DNA from: an uncultured Poribacteria bacterium
GTDB taxonomy: Bacteria > Poribacteria > WGA-4E > WGA-3G
NCBI GenBank assembly: GCA_951828385.1
Contig: OX639973.1
Location: 4,083,200 to 4,147,199, forward strand
DNA: 64,000 nt
Reading direction: 5' to 3'
The notes under the pieces are model-generated. The model was given only the letters and a program-made list of their open reading frames with translations. It was not told where the DNA came from and searched no databases. This document shows positions 10,334 to 57,713 of this stretch, in pieces (the first letter of the stretch is position 1; the number at the start of each line of letters is the position of its first letter). The position numbers and the translations under genes are program-made.

Positions 10334-11533
10334 ATGGATGTCACGGTGAAATCACAACAAACCGAATTGGGACTGAGCATCTTGCTCAGAGAGAAAAGCG
10401 ATTGGATTCGAGGGAAATCCATCGGGCTGATTACAAACCATACGGGGGTTGATGCTGCTCTACAGAGCAATTATCGGCTTTTCGCTGAAGTAGCCGCGTG
10501 TCAGCTTTCTGCGATTTTTTCGCCAGAGCATGGACTCTGGGGAGCAGTCCAAGACGGTATCGCTATCAGTAGTAGGGGCGAGGTAACCTTGCCCCTACGA
10601 GGCGAAAATCCAGTAAACGTGCCGGTTTTTAGCCTCTATGGGCAGTCGATGCGTCCGACAGCGAATCAGCTTGAAGGCATAGACCTGCTTATCTATGACA
10701 TGCAAGATGTCGGTGCGCGTTATTATACCTACATTTCGACCTTATTACATGCAATGGAAGCCGCCAGCGACTGTGGCGTTGCGTTCATTGTTACTGACCG
10801 ACCGAATCCAATTACGTGCACTGCTGTAGAGGGCCCGGTGTTAGAAAGCGGCTCTGAATCGTTCGTAGGGATACACACGATACCTGTCCGCTATGGGTTG
10901 ACAATCGGCGAGTTGGCGACACTATTGCAGGCGGAACGCGTGTCGTCCTGTCAACTAAAAGTGGTATGGATGCGTGGATATAAACGCGGCATGTGGTACG
11001 ATGACACCGGTTTGCCGTGGGTGCCACCATCGCCGAATATGCCGACACTTACAACAGCAATGCTTTATCCGGGTTTATGCCTGTTTGAAGGAACAAACAT
11101 GAGCGAAGGGCGCGGAACGACAAAGCCGTTTGAATATATAGGCGCGCCTTGGTGCAACGGCGAAAAATGTGCAGAACTTCTGAATAATTGCCAACTTTCC
11201 GGGGTTCGGTTCCGTCCTGTTGTTTTTACACCTGCGCCAGCGACCGAAACCACAAAGCATGCAAAACAGACCTGTGGCGGCGTTGCAGTCCACATCACCG
11301 ACAGAGCACAATTCCGACCTATAGAGACAGCCCTCCAGATGTTATCCATTTTAACCACCGAGTATAGAGACCATTTTGAATTCTTACCCACCCATTTTGA
11401 TAGGTTAGTAGGAAACATCTGGCTCCGAGATGCTTTATCAAATGGAACATCAGTGGATACAAGTCAGGCGCGGTGGGAGTCGGAACTTCAGACGTGGCGG
11501 GACGACATAACACAGTATCACGCCTACGCTTAA
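10334..11533 (+). CDS. namZ: Exo-beta-N-acetylmuramidase NamZ (DUF1343)
   Basis: 399 residues. NamZ releases terminal MurNAc from peptidoglycan fragments. Signatures: GKSIGLITNHTGVD, IFSPEHGLWG, LLIYDMQDVGARYYTYIST (in part), DRPNPI, FVGIHTIPVRYGLTIGELA (in part), PNMPTLTTAMLYPG, FEGTNMSEGRGTTKPFE (in part), and C-terminal YRDHFEFLPTHFDRLVG. No signal peptide is evident, so it may act on imported fragments, unlike the secreted B. subtilis enzyme. Residues ~80-91 (SSRGEVTLPLRG) are encoded by a 27-bp palindrome inserted in frame in a variable loop. The hydrolase lies upstream and AnmK 9 bp downstream, which makes a MurNAc salvage unit. Confidence 0.92.
   Translation: MDVTVKSQQTELGLSILLREKSDWIRGKSIGLITNHTGVDAALQSNYRLFAEVAACQLSAIFSPEHGLWGAVQDGIAISSRGEVTLPLRGENPVNVPVFSLYGQSMRPTANQLEGIDLLIYDMQDVGARYYTYISTLLHAMEAASDCGVAFIVTDRPNPITCTAVEGPVLESGSESFVGIHTIPVRYGLTIGELATLLQAERVSSCQLKVVWMRGYKRGMWYDDTGLPWVPPSPNMPTLTTAMLYPGLCLFEGTNMSEGRGTTKPFEYIGAPWCNGEKCAELLNNCQLSGVRFRPVVFTPAPATETTKHAKQTCGGVAVHITDRAQFRPIETALQMLSILTTEYRDHFEFLPTHFDRLVGNIWLRDALSNGTSVDTSQARWESELQTWRDDITQYHAYA
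10572..10598. repeat. 27-bp palindrome inside namZ
   Basis: Arms GTAGGGGCGAGGT and ACCTTGCCCCTAC (one mismatch) around a single A. A 27-bp relative with the same architecture lies in the WD40 gene at 15378-15404. The 27 bp keep the reading frame. Confidence 0.85.
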
Positions 11534-14065: not shown

Positions 14066-14279
14066 TGATATGCCTGTAGTGTAGGAGACTCCAGGGAAAC
14101 GCCCGCTGGTGGAGCGACAGTTAGACGGTTTTTTAGTGGTTGGTTAATGGTTAATAGTGATTGGTTAAGAAAGAAACCTCTTTCCAATAACCAACAACCA
14201 ATAACCAATAACCATTCATGAGAAAACCGCAGTCGCTATGAAACCGAAGCCCCAACCTTTAGGTTGTGGGTGCTATCAC
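14066..14279 (+). ncRNA. Predicted right-end guide RNA (omega/reRNA) region, copy 1
   Basis: TnpB guide RNAs begin near the 3' end of tnpB and run through the right-end hairpin, with the guide taken from the flanking DNA. This region ends in the hairpin at 14250-14270 and TATCAC; the guide would then start at 14280 (TGAACGTCCTGAG). It also holds an imperfect inverted array of TAATGGTTAA and CCAATAA heptamers (14136-14215). Inferred from family biology. Confidence 0.45.
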
Positions 14280-15341: not shown

Positions 15342-16427
15342 ATGAGAACGCTGGTGACGATAGCACTTTTGATGTTAGTAGGGTCGAGGTTACCTCGCCC
15401 CTACATAACACCGGCGAAATCTGAAAATGCGACTCAAAAAGAGGAATCCACAATGCAAACAACTTCTGCCCAGGATTTGTCTCACATCACTATTGATTTA
15501 GCCATCAAGAGAGGTGTCCACAGTGTCGCGTTCAGTCCGGATGGTACAACAATTGCAAGCGACAAGAACAACACCGTCGGACTCTGGGATGCCGTCACAG
15601 GACAGGAAATAGAGATGGCGAAAAATTTCTGGGTGGCTTTTCAGGGAAATTTCACTGCCGATATCAACAGCATTGCTTTCAGTCCCGATGGACAGATGAT
15701 CGCAGGCGGGATCAACGAAAGTGAGGTTATTTGTATTTGGGACGCTACGACCGGCGAGAACCTCAGATCCATGAAGGAAAATGCGCCGAATGCTTTGCAT
15801 TGGGTCAATACGGTAGCATTCAGCACTAACAGCAAGATACTCGCAAGTGGGAGTGAAGACGGCAATCTGTATCTATGGGACGTGGAGACAGGTAGGAAGT
15901 TGAAAACGCTTACCGAAGATGCGAAGAATATCTTCAGTGTTGCCTTCAGTAGCGACGGAAAAACGTTAGCGAGTGGCAATGCAGGCAATACGATCCGTTT
16001 GTGGGATATTGCCACCGGCGAGAAATTGAAAACACTCGTTGGGCATACGAATTGGGTCTTCAGCGTTGCTTTCAGTCCGGACGGACAGACGCTTGCAAGC
16101 GGAAGTTGGGACAAGACCATCCGACTCTGGGATACAACTACAGGACAGCAACTGAAAGTGCTGACTGGACATACGCTTACTGTGTGGAGTGTCGCCTTTA
16201 GTTCGGATGGATTAACCCTCGCAAGTGGAAGTCAGGACAAGACCGTCCGACTCTGGAATATCGCCACCGGTGCGCACATCGCAACCCTCACCGGGCACAC
16301 AGCACCCGTCAAGAGTGTCGCTTTCAGTTCGGATGGCGTAACGCTTGCAAGTGGGAGTATGGATAGCACAGTCCGTTTATGGGACCTCACATCTCCGTTG
16401 CTATTGCGAAAAGACAAAGCGGAATAG
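15342..16427 (+). CDS. Secreted seven-blade WD40 propeller protein
   Basis: 361 residues. GGAGGGAACTT precedes the ATG. After a short hydrophobic N-terminus (MRTLVTIALLMLVG) and a linker come seven WD40 repeats from ~residue 58 to 355, each ending in a variant of xVRLWD (VGLWDAV, ICIWDAT, LYLWDVE, IRLWDIA, IRLWDTT, VRLWNIA, VRLWDLT). Seven repeats make one complete propeller, so it is probably a protein-binding scaffold outside the cytoplasm. Repeats 4-7 are very similar at the DNA level, which suggests recent expansion. Residues 13-21, directly after the signal helix, are encoded by a 27-bp palindrome inserted in frame; this could shorten or disturb the signal peptide. Confidence 0.85.
   Translation: MRTLVTIALLMLVGSRLPRPYITPAKSENATQKEESTMQTTSAQDLSHITIDLAIKRGVHSVAFSPDGTTIASDKNNTVGLWDAVTGQEIEMAKNFWVAFQGNFTADINSIAFSPDGQMIAGGINESEVICIWDATTGENLRSMKENAPNALHWVNTVAFSTNSKILASGSEDGNLYLWDVETGRKLKTLTEDAKNIFSVAFSSDGKTLASGNAGNTIRLWDIATGEKLKTLVGHTNWVFSVAFSPDGQTLASGSWDKTIRLWDTTTGQQLKVLTGHTLTVWSVAFSSDGLTLASGSQDKTVRLWNIATGAHIATLTGHTAPVKSVAFSSDGVTLASGSMDSTVRLWDLTSPLLLRKDKAE
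15378..15404. repeat. 27-bp palindrome inside the WD40 gene
   Basis: Arms GTAGGGTCGAGGT and ACCTCGCCCCTAC (one mismatch) around a T; the same family as 10572-10598 in namZ. It lies just after the signal-helix codons and keeps the frame. Confidence 0.85.
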
Positions 16428-21789: not shown

Positions 21790-23394
21790 ATGTCAATAAC
21801 TGATTTTTTTCGAGGGAAAGTTCTGCTCATCACCGGTGGCACTGCATTTTTAGGTCAGCCATTAGTAGCGAAGATATTGATGGCACTACCCGATGTCGAA
21901 AAGATTTATCTCCTCATCCGAAGCCGCACCGATGCCTCTGGGAAGCGCGTTTCTGCTCAAGAACGGTTAGAAAATGAACTTCTCGCCTCGGATGTTTTTG
22001 CTTCGCTGCGTCGTCTGCACGGGGAGAACTTTAAGGCATGGGCACTACAGAAACTCACTGCTGTTGAAGGGGATCTCACCGATGAACGCCTCGGATTCAG
22101 CGATGCCGATTATCGACGGCTCCAGGACGAAGTACAGGTCTTTATTAACGTCGCAGGACTTGTGGATTTCGATCCACCTTTTGACGACTCTTTATGGGGC
22201 AACGCCCTCGCTGCGAAGCACGTCGTCAACTTCGCGAAAGGGTGTCAAGATGCAGTGTTCTTACATGTCTCAACTGCGTACGTCTGCGGTGACAAGCCGG
22301 GGCACGTGCCTGAAAAATTACCACTTCCGTATGAACACTACGCCGCAGCACATCGAGAAAAGACCGGAATCTCTATCCCAGAGACACTTTCTGAAGAAAT
22401 TGAAGGGTTGTTATCTCTGAGTGCTGCTATTCATGCCGAAGTTGATTCACCTGAAAATCTGACGCGTTTCCAGCAAGCGGCAGAACAAGAAAAAAAAGGG
22501 ACTCGCAAAGCGATGGATGTGCAAGTTGAAGAACTGAAAGCGGAGTGGCTTGAGAGTCGCTTGGTTGAAGAAGGGTTGCAGCACGCTCGCTCACGTGGAT
22601 GGAACGATACCTACACCTACATGAAATTCCTTGCCGAACAGATGGTTATGGAATTGCGCGGTGAGCTTCCTACGGCTATTGTGCGTCCCTCAATTATTGA
22701 GAGTAGTTTTGATGAACCTGAACCCGGTTGGCTCGGAAAGTTTCGGATGTCCGAACCTTTGATTGTCGGTTTTGGAAAAGGTCGCCTTCCCGATTTCCCC
22801 GCGGATCCCGATATAATTTTGGACATTATTCCCGTTGACTTTGTTGTCAATGCTATGTTGGCAGCTGCGGAAACGACGGCAAAACAAGGTGGTATTGAGG
22901 TGTATCATGTGGCAACAGGCACGCAGAACCCCCTCTACTTTCGTGGTATCTTCGAGGCAACCTACGATTACTTCGTCAAATACCCAATGTTGGAGAATGG
23001 GCAGCCGGTTGCAGTGCCAATCTGGAAGTATCCGAGTTTAGAGGAATTTCACCGGAAATTGGATAGCCGAATGGGGCTGCTCAACCTCATTATCAAGGTA
23101 CTTGATAAACTTCCGATTCGTGCTGCGAAGCGAAAACGCCGTCAACTTTCCCTGAAACAGAGCGGTATTAAGGCACTCCTGCATTACATCAGAATCTATG
23201 CGCCCTACACGCGGACGAATTTTGAATTTGAGACGCAAAAGATGCAAGGGCTTTACGAGGCACTTTCGCCGACAGAGCAGCAACGGTTCAACTTTGATGT
23301 TTCACAAATCCATTGGAAACGGTATTTCCAGGAGATACATATCCCGGGTATCAAGCGGCATGTGTTGAAACTTGAAGATGGCGCGAATGGTTAA
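21790..23394 (+). CDS. Fatty acyl-CoA/ACP reductase (FAR/NAD_binding_4 type)
   Basis: 534 residues. The N-terminal extended-SDR Rossmann fold has LLITGGTAFLGQPLVAKIL (NADPH binding, residues ~12-30), then KIYLLIRSR, NVAGLVDFDPPFDDSLWGN (in part), FLHVSTAYVCG and the catalytic Tyr275-xxx-Lys279 (YTYMKFLAEQ). AIVRPSIIESS follows. The C-terminal region (~410-520) corresponds to the 'sterile' domain of alcohol-forming reductases (RMGLLNLIIKVLDKLP). Such enzymes reduce activated fatty acids to fatty aldehyde or alcohol. The next gene makes the activated acyl chain, so both likely act in one lipid pathway. Confidence 0.82.
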   Translation: MSITDFFRGKVLLITGGTAFLGQPLVAKILMALPDVEKIYLLIRSRTDASGKRVSAQERLENELLASDVFASLRRLHGENFKAWALQKLTAVEGDLTDERLGFSDADYRRLQDEVQVFINVAGLVDFDPPFDDSLWGNALAAKHVVNFAKGCQDAVFLHVSTAYVCGDKPGHVPEKLPLPYEHYAAAHREKTGISIPETLSEEIEGLLSLSAAIHAEVDSPENLTRFQQAAEQEKKGTRKAMDVQVEELKAEWLESRLVEEGLQHARSRGWNDTYTYMKFLAEQMVMELRGELPTAIVRPSIIESSFDEPEPGWLGKFRMSEPLIVGFGKGRLPDFPADPDIILDIIPVDFVVNAMLAAAETTAKQGGIEVYHVATGTQNPLYFRGIFEATYDYFVKYPMLENGQPVAVPIWKYPSLEEFHRKLDSRMGLLNLIIKVLDKLPIRAAKRKRRQLSLKQSGIKALLHYIRIYAPYTRTNFEFETQKMQGLYEALSPTEQQRFNFDVSQIHWKRYFQEIHIPGIKRHVLKLEDGANG

Positions 23395-23575
23395 TGGTTA
23401 ATGGTTAATAGTTCATGGTTAATGGTTAATAGTTTATGGTTAATGGTGATTGGTTAATAGTTTATGGTAAGAGGTTTCTTTTCTTACCAATAACCAACCA
23501 CCAACAACCAACAACCATTTCTCCAACAACCAATAACTAACAACCATTCCTCCAACAACCAACAACCATAAAAGA
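23391..23575. repeat. TTAATGG heptamer tract with inverse arm
   Basis: The left half repeats GGTTAATGGTTAATAG, the centre reads AAGAGGTTTCTTTTCTT, and the right half repeats CCAATAACCAAC/CAACAACC. The layout matches the tract at 14136-14215 inside the TnpB element. The halves can pair into a long imperfect hairpin. The tract begins at the stop codon of the reductase gene. Confidence 0.7.
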
Positions 23576-23598
23576 TGGATCGGAGGAATAGGTAGGAT

Positions 23599-33444: not shown

Positions 33445-36400
33445 TTATTGCATCGCCTCTTCCACAATAGCAATATCTTCTTGTGTTAAATTATACAAGG
33501 CATACACGCGTTTATCAATCTCTTGCTCCAAATCAGCGGTATCTGCATCTGGATTGGCGATTTTCGCCTCAAGGATCTGGTTGACAATCTTAATGATTCC
33601 AGTCTGTTGCTCATAGGCAACCGCCGGTATGGGAAATTCTTTCACGTAATTGTTAATCCAACGACTTGTCCCCATGCCACTTGTCTCCGCAACAAGGCTC
33701 AGATAAAAACGAATTGTACTTGAATTTAAGATGCCGAGAAGAAATTTTGAGTCTATATCCGGTGGTGGCAGTAAGAAATATGCAGAATTTAGGAGATAGA
33801 CTTCGTCGTTACAAAGGGCAAATCGCCCCAAATCTGACAATTCAATCCATACAATTTTTTTCTTTTTGAAGTCATCATAAAATGAGCAAGCTCTTAGATT
33901 TGTCCAATGTTGCCCTTGTGCTCCGCGATTTTTGAACTTATCCCCAAATGAATCCAAATGTTCATATATATCAGGATAATCTTTTTCTACATTAACCCCG
34001 TTTTTAGTCAATAAAACATACTGTTTCGGTAAAGTGTAACTGTAGCGAGAAATATCTCTCCCTCTCAAAATGGGTTTTATGATTTCGGTATTGATAGGAT
34101 TTTTCTCACAAAACTCTCGTTTTTGATCCTCGTCTATAAGAAAAGCTTCATTGCTACCAGTTGCAATACCAAGTCTTATTTTTGTGTTCAGCTCTTCGAG
34201 CGTTTTTCCTTGTGACTCCAATTTCTTTTGAAGTTCAACAAGTTTTGGTTCAGCAAGATTCCACGACTTTGAATCAAAGTACACTTGGGGATAGTTAAAG
34301 CCGTTGACACTTACAAAATCTTCAAAACTCTCACCTGAAAATGGAGAATTAACAACAATACAAAAGTCATCAGAGGAATTTGTCGGTTTACGAGACACAA
34401 TTATCGAAACATTAACAATAGCACTCTCGAAAACCTGTGAGTCCTCAATATTTAACATTCTGAGCAGAATGTTTTTACTATGAAGCAGATTTCGGATTGG
34501 TGCTCCATATTCCGCCCTCAAGTATGAATTTGAGGTGATGAAACTAAGGATACCCCCTTCGTTTTGTAGGTCTATCGCTTTCTCAATGAAATAGCAATAG
34601 ATATCCGCAAAAGGTTGGTAAGATTGATAACCGTTCTTGATTTTGGCTTTAAGTTGCTTTGGAATCTTATCATGGCTAATGTAAGGCGGATTGCCAATTA
34701 CCACATCGAACCCGTTTGTAATACCGAACATCCATTCGGGGTCAAAGAAATCTGCGGTAACGTTCTGGTCGTAAGGATCCCACTCCGCTATCTTTTTAGT
34801 CGTCTCACTCGGAAACCCGTCCCGTTTGAGCAGTGTGCTGATCTCGGTGCGGAGTTCCGCGTCACGTTGTCTGTATCGGTCTTTGGTTCTCGGTGTTCGG
34901 GCGGTGAAGTGCCGACGGCGTACCTCTTCTAACGCCTGCTCCTTCGTGTCTATCTCCGGGTTGCGGAGCGACATTTGTGCGGGTTTCTCTATATCAAGGA
35001 GTGTATTCGCTGCGACAAACTTCGTCTCAAGGTTCGGCAAGGGACGCACGCCGCGGTTCTCGCGCGTCTCGTCAATCCGCTGCTCTACAATCAGTGAGAT
35101 AAAGAAGCGGAGTTTGGCGATCTGTGTAGCGATGGGTTGGATGTCCACGCCATAGATGCAATTCTCTATGAGATAGAGTTTTCTGCCGTAATCGAGTGCA
35201 TTGCGTTCAAATGCCTCGTTGATATTTTCAATTTCGCGTTCCAATTCGTCAATCGTGCTTTCTCGGATAACACTGTCGTCAATTTTCTCTGCTTCTGTGA
35301 TGGTGCTTTGAACTCTGTCGATTTGCCGTTGTCGCCACTGTGCGTTGCGGGGATCGAGTTTGCTGAGCAGGAAGACGAGTTTGTGAAGGATACCCATCGG
35401 GAAGGCACCGGAACCGCACGCCGGGTCGAGGATCTTGAGCGTATCAATGGCGGCGATGAGGTGTGCCACTTCGGTATCGGTGAATTGGTGGGGTTCGTCG
35501 TTGTAGGCAAGCAGGTGCCGGAGTCTATCTTCTATTGCACTGTTCGTAGGTTGGGTTGAACGAAGAGAAACCCAACGGGAAAGCCCGTTTTGGAGATAAG
35601 CAATCAAGGATTCATCTACCATGTAATTGACGACTTCACGCGGGGTATAGAACGAACCGGTCTGTTTACGAGCAGTCGTGCCGGTTTCAGGATTATATGC
35701 TGCAAGGAGATTTTCAAAAACTTGACCGAGTAACTCGGGGTCCAAGGCGACTTCTTGCTCTATCGGTGTGTTCTCTGCGATCGTGAACTTGTAGCGGTTG
35801 AGGATATGGATTAAGCCGCGCACGGTATACTTGCTATTTTTTGTACCATAGACGGCATTGAGATTGACCGCCTGCGGTTCGGAGAAGAAGAGCGCGTTTG
35901 GTACACAAAGCGGGTTGTCGTCTCTATCAGAGAATCCGTCTATACGCAAGATCGTTTTCGCATCGTCCGGTGCGGATTTATCCAGACACTCAAACAGCCC
36001 ACCGTTGAGGAACGGAATCGATTCAAACAGACGCAGAGCCGCGTCGGGATCCTTGAAATAGCGTTTGTAGCGGTAGAGAGAAGTGATGTTATAGTGCTGT
36101 CTGCCCTCGCCGCGGAATTTGCGGGTATTCGGTTTTTCAGGTGTATTCATCTCTTGATTCAACGTGGCGAAAAACAGGTTTTGGAGGATTGCCTTGTAGT
36201 AGGTGCTTTCATCCGCATCCACATTTGTGAGCAGCTCCACAATCTCATCTGCGTCAAAAAGGACATTCGACACAAGGTCTTTTTCTTTCAGAAACCAGAC
36301 GAAGATGAGCCGCGTAATCAGGCGGATGATACACGTGGCGTTGCGGATACTTTCATTGTCACCCGCCTCGGTTGAACCCCCCTGGCCCCCCTTATCAGGG

Positions 36401-37140
36401 GGGAATGTCACCTGACTCACTGCCCAGAAATACCAATCCGCTATCTCTTTGAAGAAGCGTCTGTTGAGTTCGGAGGTGTCTAATGCCTGCTGCCACGCCC
36501 GATGCAATTCAAGAAAATTCGTAAACCCGTACCGCTGATAGAGGGCATCCAGCGATAGGTCTGCTAAGATGTCAAGGTGTGCGCGGTGCGGATTCACAAC
36601 GTCAATATCTTTGATGAGTGTCACTTTTTCGAGGACATCGCGATCTTGATCGCGTTGGCTGGGTCTGCGGTTGATAATGGCGAAGGTCAGCGCGTGTCCG
36701 TGCTGGAAAATCAGCAGCGCCGGCATCGCATAGCATTTATTGATTTCGCGAGCGATACTGGCAAGTGCGGTGCGGGAGTAGGTATCTCCTTTGAGTTTGA
36801 TAGCAAGAAAGAGATAGGAGTAGTAAATCGTATTGTCAATGCCTTGGTCTTCATGAAAGACAATCGTTTCTTGTGTGTGCTGTGTGATTTCGTCAGCGGT
36901 AAGTTGAAAGAGGAAGTCTGCGGTGTCCCATTCGTGTAGCAGTGCCTTCTGTCGGTTCATCCGCTTATGCCTGTCAAAGTCTTCAAGAAATGCCGTGACG
37001 GTATTTTCCGTTCGGCTAAGAGTTCGCTGGCTTTGGTAGCCTAACACCTTGAGGAGGTGGGTGGCGTTTTCGTGGGTTTCACCGTCCGTAAAATTGTTAA
37101 GCGCGCGTTGGATGTCGGTTCTGATATGTGTTTGATGCAT
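33445..37140 (-). CDS. Type IIG-like restriction-modification enzyme (Eco57I/TaqI_C family)
   Basis: 1231 residues. The N-terminal ~450 residues are a helical region with no nuclease motif I can assign. The gamma-class adenine methyltransferase core follows: GSFYTPREVVNYMVDESL near residue 495, motif I LDPACGSGAFPMGIL near 572, and motif IV GNPPYISHD with Asn817-Pro-Pro-Tyr820. The C-terminal TaqI_C-like specificity region (~1010-1190) has IIKPILRGRDISRYS, YVLLTKNGVNVEKDYPDI, LLNSAYFLLPPPD and LLGILNSSTIRFYLS. The gene would modify adenine and, if the N-terminus is a nuclease, cut nearby. AAGGAAA precedes the ATG. Two palindromic repeats are inserted in frame, at 35550-35576 and 36386-36403. 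The FRG-TPR gene starts ~350 bp downstream. Confidence 0.87.
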   Translation of the reverse strand: MHQTHIRTDIQRALNNFTDGETHENATHLLKVLGYQSQRTLSRTENTVTAFLEDFDRHKRMNRQKALLHEWDTADFLFQLTADEITQHTQETIVFHEDQGIDNTIYYSYLFLAIKLKGDTYSRTALASIAREINKCYAMPALLIFQHGHALTFAIINRRPSQRDQDRDVLEKVTLIKDIDVVNPHRAHLDILADLSLDALYQRYGFTNFLELHRAWQQALDTSELNRRFFKEIADWYFWAVSQVTFPPDKGGQGGSTEAGDNESIRNATCIIRLITRLIFVWFLKEKDLVSNVLFDADEIVELLTNVDADESTYYKAILQNLFFATLNQEMNTPEKPNTRKFRGEGRQHYNITSLYRYKRYFKDPDAALRLFESIPFLNGGLFECLDKSAPDDAKTILRIDGFSDRDDNPLCVPNALFFSEPQAVNLNAVYGTKNSKYTVRGLIHILNRYKFTIAENTPIEQEVALDPELLGQVFENLLAAYNPETGTTARKQTGSFYTPREVVNYMVDESLIAYLQNGLSRWVSLRSTQPTNSAIEDRLRHLLAYNDEPHQFTDTEVAHLIAAIDTLKILDPACGSGAFPMGILHKLVFLLSKLDPRNAQWRQRQIDRVQSTITEAEKIDDSVIRESTIDELEREIENINEAFERNALDYGRKLYLIENCIYGVDIQPIATQIAKLRFFISLIVEQRIDETRENRGVRPLPNLETKFVAANTLLDIEKPAQMSLRNPEIDTKEQALEEVRRRHFTARTPRTKDRYRQRDAELRTEISTLLKRDGFPSETTKKIAEWDPYDQNVTADFFDPEWMFGITNGFDVVIGNPPYISHDKIPKQLKAKIKNGYQSYQPFADIYCYFIEKAIDLQNEGGILSFITSNSYLRAEYGAPIRNLLHSKNILLRMLNIEDSQVFESAIVNVSIIVSRKPTNSSDDFCIVVNSPFSGESFEDFVSVNGFNYPQVYFDSKSWNLAEPKLVELQKKLESQGKTLEELNTKIRLGIATGSNEAFLIDEDQKREFCEKNPINTEIIKPILRGRDISRYSYTLPKQYVLLTKNGVNVEKDYPDIYEHLDSFGDKFKNRGAQGQHWTNLRACSFYDDFKKKKIVWIELSDLGRFALCNDEVYLLNSAYFLLPPPDIDSKFLLGILNSSTIRFYLSLVAETSGMGTSRWINNYVKEFPIPAVAYEQQTGIIKIVNQILEAKIANPDADTADLEQEIDKRVYALYNLTQEDIAIVEEAMQ
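35550..35576. repeat. In-frame palindrome GTTGGGTT/AACCCAAC inside the type IIG gene
   Basis: Perfect 8-bp arms with an 11-base loop. It encodes the segment SRWVSLRSTQPTNS between the 'YTPRE' helix and motif I, a place where family members vary. Confidence 0.7.
36386..36403. repeat. In-frame palindrome CCCCCCTTATCAGGGGGG inside the type IIG gene
   Basis: 7-bp arms with a 4-base loop, encoding PPDKGGQGG near residue 247. The surrounding protein is helical, so this reads as a foreign linker inserted in frame. Confidence 0.75.
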
Positions 37141-47691: not shown

Positions 47692-47819
47692 TTATAGTAA
47701 AGTTTAGAATTAATTGGGCACTCTCAAACAGTCTGAATACCTATAACAGGCATTCAGACTGGCACAAACTAAAAGTTTGTGCTACGAATGTGTCTATTTA
47801 TTTTTAGGATTCACTATAA
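47692..47819. repeat. 128-bp terminal-inverted-repeat element, copy B
   Basis: Ends TTATAGT and ACTATAA. Differs from copy C by only a few bases (for example CTAAAAGTTTG versus CTGGAAGTTTG), so these two moved or were copied recently. Confidence 0.8.
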
Positions 47820-49573: not shown

Positions 49574-49987
49574 ATGAAATTAGAAACACCTATTTTAACA
49601 TATCAAACGACACGATCTGCTACATACGCCTGTGAGTACCATATCATCTGGTGTACAAAATACAGAAGAAGTGTCTTGTCTTCTGACATTCAAGAACGAT
49701 TCAAAGAACTTGTCATAGAATCAGAAGAAAAACACGGATTTACGGTTCGTGCTTTAGAGACAATGACAGACCACATACATTTGTTGATTAGCATTCCTCC
49801 AACTCAAGCCGTTGGTGTAATGATTGGCAAACTCAAAGGAATGACGGCTCAAGTTCTTCGTGAGGAGTTTCCGCACCTAAAATCAAGACTGCCGAACTTG
49901 TGGACACGTTCCTATTTTGTAGCGTCTACAGGGGGTGTAACACTACAAGTTCTAAAAGAATATGTAGAAAACCAGAAAGGTGTCTAA
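49574..49987 (+). CDS. tnpA: IS200/IS605 transposase TnpA (HUH, Y1)
   Basis: 137 residues, the usual size. Catalytic HUH pair His67/His69 in TDHIHLLIS and nucleophile Tyr130 in VLKEYVENQ. It works as a dimer that cuts and joins single-stranded DNA at subterminal hairpins without target duplication. Its TAA is immediately followed by the tnpB ATG, so the genes are co-translated. All active-site residues are present, so it may be active, and it could be a source of transposase for related elements, although the TnpB-only elements have differently sequenced hairpins. Confidence 0.95.
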   Translation: MKLETPILTYQTTRSATYACEYHIIWCTKYRRSVLSSDIQERFKELVIESEEKHGFTVRALETMTDHIHLLISIPPTQAVGVMIGKLKGMTAQVLREEFPHLKSRLPNLWTRSYFVASTGGVTLQVLKEYVENQKGV

Positions 49988-51226
49988 ATGCCAAGTTTCT
50001 ACCGCACGCAAACCCTGAAAATAGAAGCACAACCGATATTCTCTGAAGCGAATGCTGCGTCTGGTGCTGTTTGGAATGCCTGTTGCGATCAAATGGATAT
50101 GTACCAGTGGCAGCGTGGCTATCCTCATGCTCACAGAGACTTCTATTTCGGTAAAGACTGCGAAGGCTGGATAGACCGAAAACTTTCTAATCCACTCTTG
50201 CATTCCCAAAGTCGGCAAGCGGTTCGGGAGCGTTACTTCAAGTCTTGGTTGTCCTACTCTGCTGTGAAAAAATCGGGTGGCGTTAGAAAGCCGAAACCTC
50301 CTAACACACGAAAAAACTATATGACGACCCGTTGGAAAAAGTCTGCCATTCGTTTTGTAGAAGGTAGCCTCTTTGGTAAACGCGTTGAACTTTCTATGGC
50401 ACAGAGTCAACCGAAAATAGAGATACCTTTGCCCAACAACTTTGATATGTCTAAAGCAGCACATATCGCAACGATTGATTTGTGCTATAACTACGGACAC
50501 TGGACACTCCATTTTTCGTATTTGTATCACACCGAAACACCTGAAACCGGTAAAGAAGTTGTAGGCGTTGATATAGGCGAAATACACCCGATTGTCTCTC
50601 ACGATGGTCAAGACACACATATCTACAATGGACGGTATATCCGCTCACTATACCGCTATAGAAACAAAGTGCTTGCCGAATTCAGTCAGACGCTCAGTCG
50701 GTGTAAACGCCATTCTAAACGCTGGTGGAGACTCACCCGTCGGAAGTGGAAGCGTATTAGAAAGATTGATAACCAAATCAAAGACGCACTCCACAAACAG
50801 ACCACTAAGTTCGTCAAATACTGCCAAGCAAAAGGTATTGGCACAATAATACTCGGAGACCTCACAGGTATTCGAAACACCATAGACTACGGAAAAAAGA
50901 CGAACCAGAAACTCCACCAGTGGGCTTTTGGTAAGATTGCCGAGTTGATAACCTACAAAGCGAAAGCGTTAGGTATCAAAGTCAAAGTCATTGACGAATC
51001 CTATACCTCTCAAACTTGCCCTAAATGTGGCAACCGAAAGAAACCGAACAATCGCAACTATACCTGTAAATGTGGTTTCCAATATCACCGCGACGGTGTC
51101 GGTGCGATCAATATCAGAGAAAAGTATCTGGGTCACTTCGGTGTCCCCGTAGTGGCGGAAATGGGTTCTCCCCGTATGACACCGCCCTTGGGCTTTCGCT
51201 TGGAAGTCCCTGTTGCCTCGTCTTAG
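49988..51226 (+). CDS. tnpB: TnpB nuclease with altered RuvC-II position
   Basis: 412 residues, only distantly related to the TnpB at 12947. RuvC-I Asp195 (VVGVDIGEIH) and RuvC-III Asp369 (QYHRDGVGAINI) are present, with zinc-ribbon cysteines 344, 347, 360 and 362. At the RuvC-II position, where most TnpBs have Glu-Asp-Leu, this protein has Gly290-Asp-Leu (IILGDLTGIRN). Glu337 in VIDESYTSQTC, just before the ribbon, is a candidate replacement, as described for TnpBs with rearranged active sites. Otherwise it could be catalytically dead. It follows tnpA without a gap; the C-terminal ~30 residues probably overlap the guide-RNA region. Confidence 0.9.
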   Translation: MPSFYRTQTLKIEAQPIFSEANAASGAVWNACCDQMDMYQWQRGYPHAHRDFYFGKDCEGWIDRKLSNPLLHSQSRQAVRERYFKSWLSYSAVKKSGGVRKPKPPNTRKNYMTTRWKKSAIRFVEGSLFGKRVELSMAQSQPKIEIPLPNNFDMSKAAHIATIDLCYNYGHWTLHFSYLYHTETPETGKEVVGVDIGEIHPIVSHDGQDTHIYNGRYIRSLYRYRNKVLAEFSQTLSRCKRHSKRWWRLTRRKWKRIRKIDNQIKDALHKQTTKFVKYCQAKGIGTIILGDLTGIRNTIDYGKKTNQKLHQWAFGKIAELITYKAKALGIKVKVIDESYTSQTCPKCGNRKKPNNRNYTCKCGFQYHRDGVGAINIREKYLGHFGVPVVAEMGSPRMTPPLGFRLEVPVASS

Positions 51227-54691: not shown

Positions 54692-54819
54692 TTAGAGTAA
54701 AGTTTAGAATTAATTGGGCACTCTCAAACAGTCTGAATACCTATAACAGGCATTCAGACTGGCACAAACTGGAAGTTTGTGGTACGAATGTGTCTATTTA
54801 TTTTTAGGATTCACTATAA
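54692..54819. repeat. 128-bp terminal-inverted-repeat element, copy C
   Basis: Near-identical to copy B; the left end is TTAGAGT instead of TTATAGT. It lies upstream of the Gfo/Idh/MocA gene. Confidence 0.8.
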
Positions 54820-57492: not shown

Positions 57493-57713
57493 GTGATAGC
57501 ACCCACAACCTAAAGGTTGGGGCTTCGGTTTCATAGCGACTGCGGTTTTCTCATGAATGGTTATTGGTTATTGGTTATTGGTTGTTGGTTATTGGAAAGA
57601 GGTTTCTTTCTTAACCAATCACTATTAACCATTAACCAACCCCTAAAAAACCGTCTAACTGTCGCTCCACCAGCGGGCGTTTCCCTGTAGTCTCCCACAC
57701 TACAGGCATATCA
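57493..57713 (-). ncRNA. Predicted right-end guide RNA region, copy 2
   Basis: Equivalent of 14066-14279. The guide would be read from the flank beyond 57493, on the minus strand GACCCAAGCGGAGCTCC, different from copy 1. Confidence 0.45.

Follow-up and report, generated by a model that had tools for sequence, protein, structure and literature searches.

Rickettsia palindromic elements (RPE) survive in frame within the genes of their hosts. Di Nocera et al. (2013; PMC3733652) describe these elements as palindromic repeats inside unrelated genes; they also report repetitive extragenic palindromes (REPs) inside known genes, for which loops and linkers were proposed as the tolerant sites, and, in two species of Xanthomonas, distinct REPs at roughly one position within recB. 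In the GTAG type of REP system, GTAG lies 5′ of a short hairpin, the copies are mostly intergenic, several families share a genome, and a cognate REP-associated tyrosine transposase (RAYT) is flanked by its own REPs; the RAYT recognition motif is given as GTAG, and the cleavage site as CT, in a further study (PMC8266576). Here we describe two different palindromes that lie in frame in a single gene, a type IIG-like restriction/methyltransferase gene of an uncultured Poribacteria bacterium. The gene is located in a window (the whole stretch of DNA analysed, 64,000 nucleotides) that covers positions 4083200-4147199 of a 6.66-Mb single-contig genome. As in Di Nocera et al., REPs occur here within known genes, with loops or linkers as the proposed tolerant sites and different REPs at one site. 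Here, by contrast, a single hinge is occupied by five families across an orthologue clade of 24 genes, and some genes from other phyla have unrelated palindromes at that same hinge. RPE, likened here by their description in the same source, share with these elements the presence of palindromic repeats within unrelated genes, and differ from the 27-nt, GTAG-tagged unit described below. REPs in genes are already known; what is new is a hinge shared by five families, the return of palindromes at that hinge in some genes from other phyla, and a gene-compatible palindrome that we call class c. Literature searches on Poribacteria repeats, REPs and RAYTs, on type IIG linkers with palindromes, on the repeat strings, on palindromic elements in coding genes and on in-frame linker elements listed no account of such a multi-family hinge.

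The gene and its two palindromes are as follows:

33445-37140, minus strand: type IIG-like restriction/methyltransferase gene, 1231 aa, with Eco57I, N6_Mtase and TaqI_C (Pfam) matches and a PADLOC match.
35546-35576, plus strand: GTAG-tagged REP of family a, GTAG followed by GTTGGGTT...AACCCAAC, in the linker between YTPR and DPACGSG, at about residues 522-532.
36377-36403, minus strand: family b palindromic unit encoding PPDKGGQGG, at about residues 246-255 of the type IIG gene.

The PADLOC match is to REase_MTase_IIG (E 1.8e-113), and methyltransferase and specificity domains lie in the same chain, as in type IIG enzymes of the Eco57I/TaqI_C architecture. Compared with those enzymes, no nuclease domain exceeds its cut-off in a Pfam search (a weak DUF4391 match at residues 124-202 falls below its own); the type IIG assignment, made from sequence, is a putative one. 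Its closest named relatives are in Candidatus Poribacteria metagenome genomes and are up to 90% identical. The first palindrome, GTTGGGTTGAACGAAGAGAAACCCAAC, occupies 35550-35576 and has GTAG directly 5′ at 35546-35549, followed by an 8-bp stem; the second, CCCCCCTTATCAGGGGGG at 36386-36403, is the right part of the 27-nt unit. Both are in frame within the single open frame, and the DNA and its translation bear out the statement of a preliminary description of the window that the two encode the peptides it quoted. That description also called the peptides linker-like. An AlphaFold model of residues 200-930 agrees, although its mean predicted local distance difference test score (pLDDT) is 67, and it therefore serves as a guide only. 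In the modelled fragment, the first insert is placed between helices 302-325 and 334-345 and overlaps a stretch of pLDDT <50 at 329-332, and the second is placed between helices 23-44 and 64-87 and overlaps such a stretch at 52-61; both inserts are thus predicted to overlap low-confidence coil between helices.

Insertion at the second site is shown by homologues. From the 114 loci given, 38 distinct sequences matched a search expression for the stretch from WYFW to IRL. The site is empty in 28 of these, several other phyla included (27 at 30 aa and one at 29 aa). Family b is present in six (four at 39 aa, that is, nine additional codons; one at 37 aa; and one tandem at 53 aa), and a different GTAG-type hairpin in four, at 33-36 aa. 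Families were classed by reading, the script tags being wrong for loci L038 and L032, and the expression missed L024, which has a degenerate family b. The empty site is nine codons shorter in 27 of the 28 cases, which answers the proposal of the preliminary description to compare homologues lacking the elements. The second site was therefore once empty and was then filled by two unrelated families. At loci L107 and L251, family b is seen as a tandem double copy, in frame (53 aa instead of 30).

The first palindrome lies in what we term the hinge, the 71-118 aa (among relatives) between motif X (YTPR) and motif I (DPACGSG). Five palindrome families, intact or decayed, are distributed across the hinges of the 24 close orthologues, out of 30 sequences: family a (GTTGGGTT) in two genes, b (CCCCCTTGATAAGGGGG) in five, d (GTAGGAGCGAGC) in four, e (GTAGTAGGCACA) in four and f (GTAGTAGGGCAA) in nine. 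They were assigned by reading the DNA or the peptide, and L028, L032 and L040 have no perfect stem of at least 6 at the hinge; L036/L213 (hinge region missing) and L127 (stops at the contig end) are outside these counts. The families interleave on a tree of the 30 gene bodies built with the hinge removed. The hinge label changes 18 times when two REP-free states are counted, compared with a possible minimum of 6 and a mean of 19.1 for shuffled labels, and was as low in 61 of 200 shuffles. On the tree, the four genes closest to the window gene share 84-90% identity with it, and among these five genes all five families are represented, one each. Over the 60 nt closest to the hinge, pairs of the same type are hardly more alike than pairs of different types (0.862 vs 0.847 to the left; 0.841 vs 0.845 to the right), and the hinge type is therefore nearly unlinked from the surrounding sequence. 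Joint spread of hinge alleles with their flanks was tested and gave little signal, the nearest neighbor over the left 60 nt being of the same type in 6.75 of 24 cases vs 5.13 expected by chance. The fucokinase gene was tried as a second multi-family site and set aside, since matches came from no more than 3 of 38 genomes, of which two have the site filled and one has it empty.

The elements are also dispersed. The GTAG-tagged family a pattern, at ≤3 mismatches, has one match in the window vs none in 100 shuffles. At the same threshold, the genome has three family a sites and six family b sites, and reversed control patterns have none for either family; a fourth family a site is a 28-nt hairpin. 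Copies of family a are thus dispersed, though few. The bare family a hairpin occurs in 15 of the 21 genomes searched, the bacterium's own among them, and families d, e and f have dispersed copies elsewhere in an 864-kb sample of its own genome (the window plus 40 stretches of 20 kb). Called genes contain one of the four family a sites and three of the six family b sites. The claim that the palindromes are insertions and not chance stands on these dispersed families with their empty controls, together with the shorter empty second sites. The 36377-36403 element has no GTAG at its base, and we do not file it as a GTAG REP; family b is a GC-rich palindrome.

Two RAYT genes exceed the NF047646 (NCBIfam) cut-off of 80 in the genome itself, at 137 and 93 bits, one flanked by family d REPs and the other by family f REPs, and 28 of 38 genus genomes have a RAYT above the cut-off. 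For family a, the relevant RAYTs are found in relatives. They form a clade of roughly 200 bits with nine loci, seven of which have 6-17 half-sites of the type GTTGGGTT/AACCCAAC; a GTCGGGT variant occurs at the other two. The remaining 21 RAYT loci fetched (two below the cut-off) have 0-2 such half-sites and mostly REPs of other families. The NF047646 search of the 38 genus genomes gave no match of the family a clade in the bacterium's own genome. With family a RAYT loci present in relatives and none found in this genome, the element at 35546 resembles a remnant whose family, elsewhere, still has its transposase alongside. Of the five hinge families, three (a, d and f) are like described GTAG REP/RAYT systems in that the cognate RAYT is flanked by its own REPs. 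In the loci read, narrow exact patterns found no RAYT beside families b, c or e, and for this reason a single mobilizer for all families was rejected.

A further palindrome, class c, is the exception to the mostly extragenic position of GTAG hairpins. The preliminary description had counted four in-frame palindromes in three genes, the other two being class c copies:

10572-10598, plus strand: class c palindrome in the NamZ gene (10334-11533), in frame, encoding RGEVTLPL.
15378-15404, plus strand: class c palindrome in the WD40 gene (15342-16427), apparently closing a signal-peptide-like N-terminus (VGSRLPRPY).

The count holds, with the coding status of the latter copy unsure because the gene caller, a codon model without homology, puts the start of the WD40 gene downstream at 15453; we counted the copy as extragenic. 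The class c pattern is GTAGGGG-N5-TNA-N5-CCCCTAC, 27 nt, and it is present in 32 of 38 genus genomes. At ≤3 mismatches, 16 of 30 sites in the bacterium's own genome are inside called genes, as are 28 of 62 in seven relatives (60 stretches of G002, G004, G005, G022, G024, G034 and G037, among the matches listed, with sites near contig ends omitted). Together, 44 of 92 copies examined are intragenic. This distinguishes the elements described here from known GTAG REP/RAYT systems, as do the poribacterial host, the lack of GTAG in family b, and the finding of no class c copy, by a narrow exact pattern, at the 30 loci of the RAYT search or at either RAYT locus of the genome; one locus with an IS200-type transposase (L020) does contain class c. 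Among the 62 copies, the inner stem is compensatory, 296 of 310 pairs being intact vs a mean of 214 and a maximum of 238 for shuffled arms, and there are seven perfect stem sequences; class c is thus a GTAG-tagged hairpin. Hosts include LpxB, GcvP, an amylase-family enzyme, an ABC transporter, HlyD-like and VWA proteins, and NamZ, where 5 of 30 loci read have a class c copy or a decayed form in the loop. In a methyltransferase/MTHFR fusion, the copy is at codon 315, between domain matches that end at 294 and start at 329.

The intragenic copies read as SRGEVTSPL in 13 cases and VGARLPRPY in three in the bacterium's own genome, and in 13 and 15 cases, respectively, in the relatives; the phase containing TAG is absent from both sets. 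The preliminary description had called for such a genome-wide scan of position and phase and could be taken to hint that the process favors the reading frame. Any such hint finds no support, as copies in the two open-capable phases are what selection alone predicts; the absence of the TAG phase is partly a matter of ascertainment, because a copy in that phase would end the called gene. The refuting outcome it had named, frameshifts at the level of chance, was not seen, although the intragenic count carries a bias, since the caller does not recognize a gene once its frame is broken, and the flank scan comprises nine copies. Those nine, of 14 extragenic copies in the genome, were scanned on both sides; seven have flanks that match different families and two are ambiguous, and no broken gene was seen among them.

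GTAG hairpins in general are depleted in genes. In the 864-kb sample, 56 of the 4439 GTAG sites precede a hairpin, compared with 0-19 for each of 20 other tetranucleotides at the same threshold, the next being GGTA (19) and TAGG (17), whose counts are probably due to overlap with GTAG. When the hairpin threshold is made stricter, the excess is smaller (GTAG 17, GGTA 14, GGAG 7 and the rest 0-5, with TTAG at 3). Although 85.5% of the sample is coding, six of 61 merged hairpins are inside genes and 55 are extragenic. The suggestion of a general process is accordingly upheld as regards genome-wide repeat families, and fails as regards insertion that favors the frame. Other GTAG hairpins were also noted. 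At L200:3009-4040, the signal-peptide-like start of a 343-aa protein is made up in part of a family f REP, and four family f REPs stand in tandem at 132-nt spacing (L178:19424-19842). An altronate/galactarate dehydratase-like gene (L181:17112-19832) has two different in-frame GTAG hairpins at codons 172 and 561, the first within the GD_AH_second match and the second 30 residues past the GD_AH_C match.

The window contains further repeats and a transposase frame. A 128-nt repeat, 88-97% alike among its copies at 764-891, 47692-47819 and 54692-54819, contains a palindrome with 10-bp arms, CAGTCTGAATACC...GGCATTCAGACTG; the second and third copies are followed by a CACAAACT...AGTTTGTG hairpin whose core with GTAG constitutes the commonest GTAG family of the 864-kb sample. 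At 14133-14228, 23373-23589 and 57543-57652, arrays resembling GGTTAAT/GGTTATT face their own reverse complement (AACCAATAACC) and could form long imperfect hairpins. An IS200-type transposase frame (Y1_Tnp match, G000:C1:4132821-4133174) lies in 49574-51226 and is followed by a 412-aa frame, putatively TnpB, in the position where that protein is expected.

We also assessed the hinge in other phyla, using 80 named loci with 76 usable hinges and an expectation derived from other windows of the same frames; the 22 Poribacteria of this set largely duplicate genes of the 24-gene clade. An inverted repeat score of at least 9 was found in the hinge core of 9 of the 22 Poribacteria, where 0.22 would be expected, and 11 of the 54 others, where the expectation is 1.01, a score of 10 in 2 (0.12 expected) and 8 (0.51 expected), and a score of 11 in 0 (0.11 expected) and 7 (0.29 expected), respectively. 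Examples of strong hinge palindromes outside Poribacteria are genes from Nitrospirae, Chloroflexi, Oscillatoriales and Desulfuromonadales.

We consider it highly probable that the palindromes are dispersed miniature elements that land at random, that selection keeps in-frame copies at tolerant sites, and that the hinge is restocked in each lineage. The palindrome at 35546-35576 would then be a GTAG-tagged REP of the kind cut and joined as single strands by HuH tyrosine transposases (RAYT/TnpA-REP), with a RAYT as its likely mover, and that at 36377-36403 a dispersed GC-rich miniature element. Fresh copies would insert anywhere, and those that break a frame or a folded core would be lost. Surviving intragenic copies would be those of net in-frame length whose hairpin leaves the frame open and which lie where insertion is tolerated, for example in a loop or a linker between domains, so that the encoded peptide may be neutral. 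The type IIG linker between motifs X and I would tolerate very different sequences and would be filled, replaced and reshuffled with whichever family is available in a lineage. Several observations weigh against this account. On average, the hinge does not exceed other parts of its gene in palindromic character (mean rank 0.31 for Poribacteria and 0.48 elsewhere), and the effect is therefore confined to a tail of genes. No REP-free hinge was met among the 24 hinges read in the clade, and the hinge REP seems to have been substituted for the native linker and not added to it, which simple insertion leaves unexplained. As hinge type does not track the flanks, the data do not tell independent insertion from recombination. 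Mobility of family a in this genome is at most presumptive, as no RAYT of the family a clade was found there, and narrow exact patterns found no RAYT beside families b, c or e in the loci read. Finally, the inserts of LpxB, GcvP, the ABC transporter, DUF6785, COX15 and NamZ fall within Pfam spans and not between domains, and the net change relative to PDB homologues varies (GcvP +9, LpxB +4, NamZ +8 and the ABC transporter 0 residues).

Some of these same observations could be read as selection for the hinge palindromes, with the REP tuning the enzyme or its mRNA, or acting as a recombination joint for module swaps, so that the site is kept stocked. The lack of a REP-free hinge in the clade, the 18 label changes, the recurrence of strong palindromes in other phyla, and the end of the best aligned segment of many relatives near residue 1026, in the specificity region, all favor such a role. 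We nevertheless regard it as improbable, given that outgroups and a distant paralogue clade have REP-free linkers of equal or greater length, that 43 of 54 non-poribacterial hinges have no strong palindrome, that stems are decayed in at least 3 of the 24 copies (L028, L032 and L040), and that unrelated genes also carry intragenic REPs. It is likewise unlikely that the hinge acts across phyla as a permanent dock for mobile palindromes, where any REP-like family active in a lineage could become the interdomain linker, with a resident REP exchangeable within ~10% gene divergence and perhaps serving as a module-exchange joint or enzyme tuner. Exchange of alleles between species deserves more credence. 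In the distant past, each family may have reached the poribacterial hinge on one or a few occasions, the five alleles spreading thereafter, which we hold to be possible, if somewhat short of an even chance. Type f copies have the same position at both ends, substitutions aside (eight as DNA and a ninth as protein), both type a copies share an unusual IEDRL flank though they are apart on the tree, and hinge type is unlinked from the flanks; on the other side, junctions vary within types b, d and e (e.g., L048 and L023), the unrelated palindromes that other phyla have at this hinge need separate entries, and near the hinge the similarity of pairs of one type scarcely exceeds that of mixed pairs. 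Such shuffling, as a secondary step, is compatible with random landing and selection.

Transposition machinery that aims at in-frame sites in genes is a most implausible alternative. Every class c copy inside called genes is in an open phase and the 27-nt unit is a multiple of three; yet a stop-phase copy would terminate the called gene, so its absence is expected, and about half of the class c copies are extragenic while 85-89% of the sequence read is coding. We know of no mechanism by which a DNA transposase could read the frame. Random insertion filtered by selection explains the class c phases, and frame-aware insertion is unneeded. That the palindromes are chance features of coding sequence has next to no probability. 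The window does have 35 entries of inverted repeats with arms of at least 8, but the shuffle and control counts for the dispersed families, the compensatory stems of class c and the empty sites at the second insert site led us to reject this explanation.

For those who annotate such genomes, linker peptides like SRGEVTSPL or FPPDKGGQGG call for caution, being translated repeats and not conserved motifs. The 27-nt class c, with two usable frames of three, offers a simple test bed for random insertion followed by a selection filter. Together, the empty, filled, replaced and in-frame decayed sites in two loops of one protein family constitute a readable record of non-coding mobile hairpins turning into protein.

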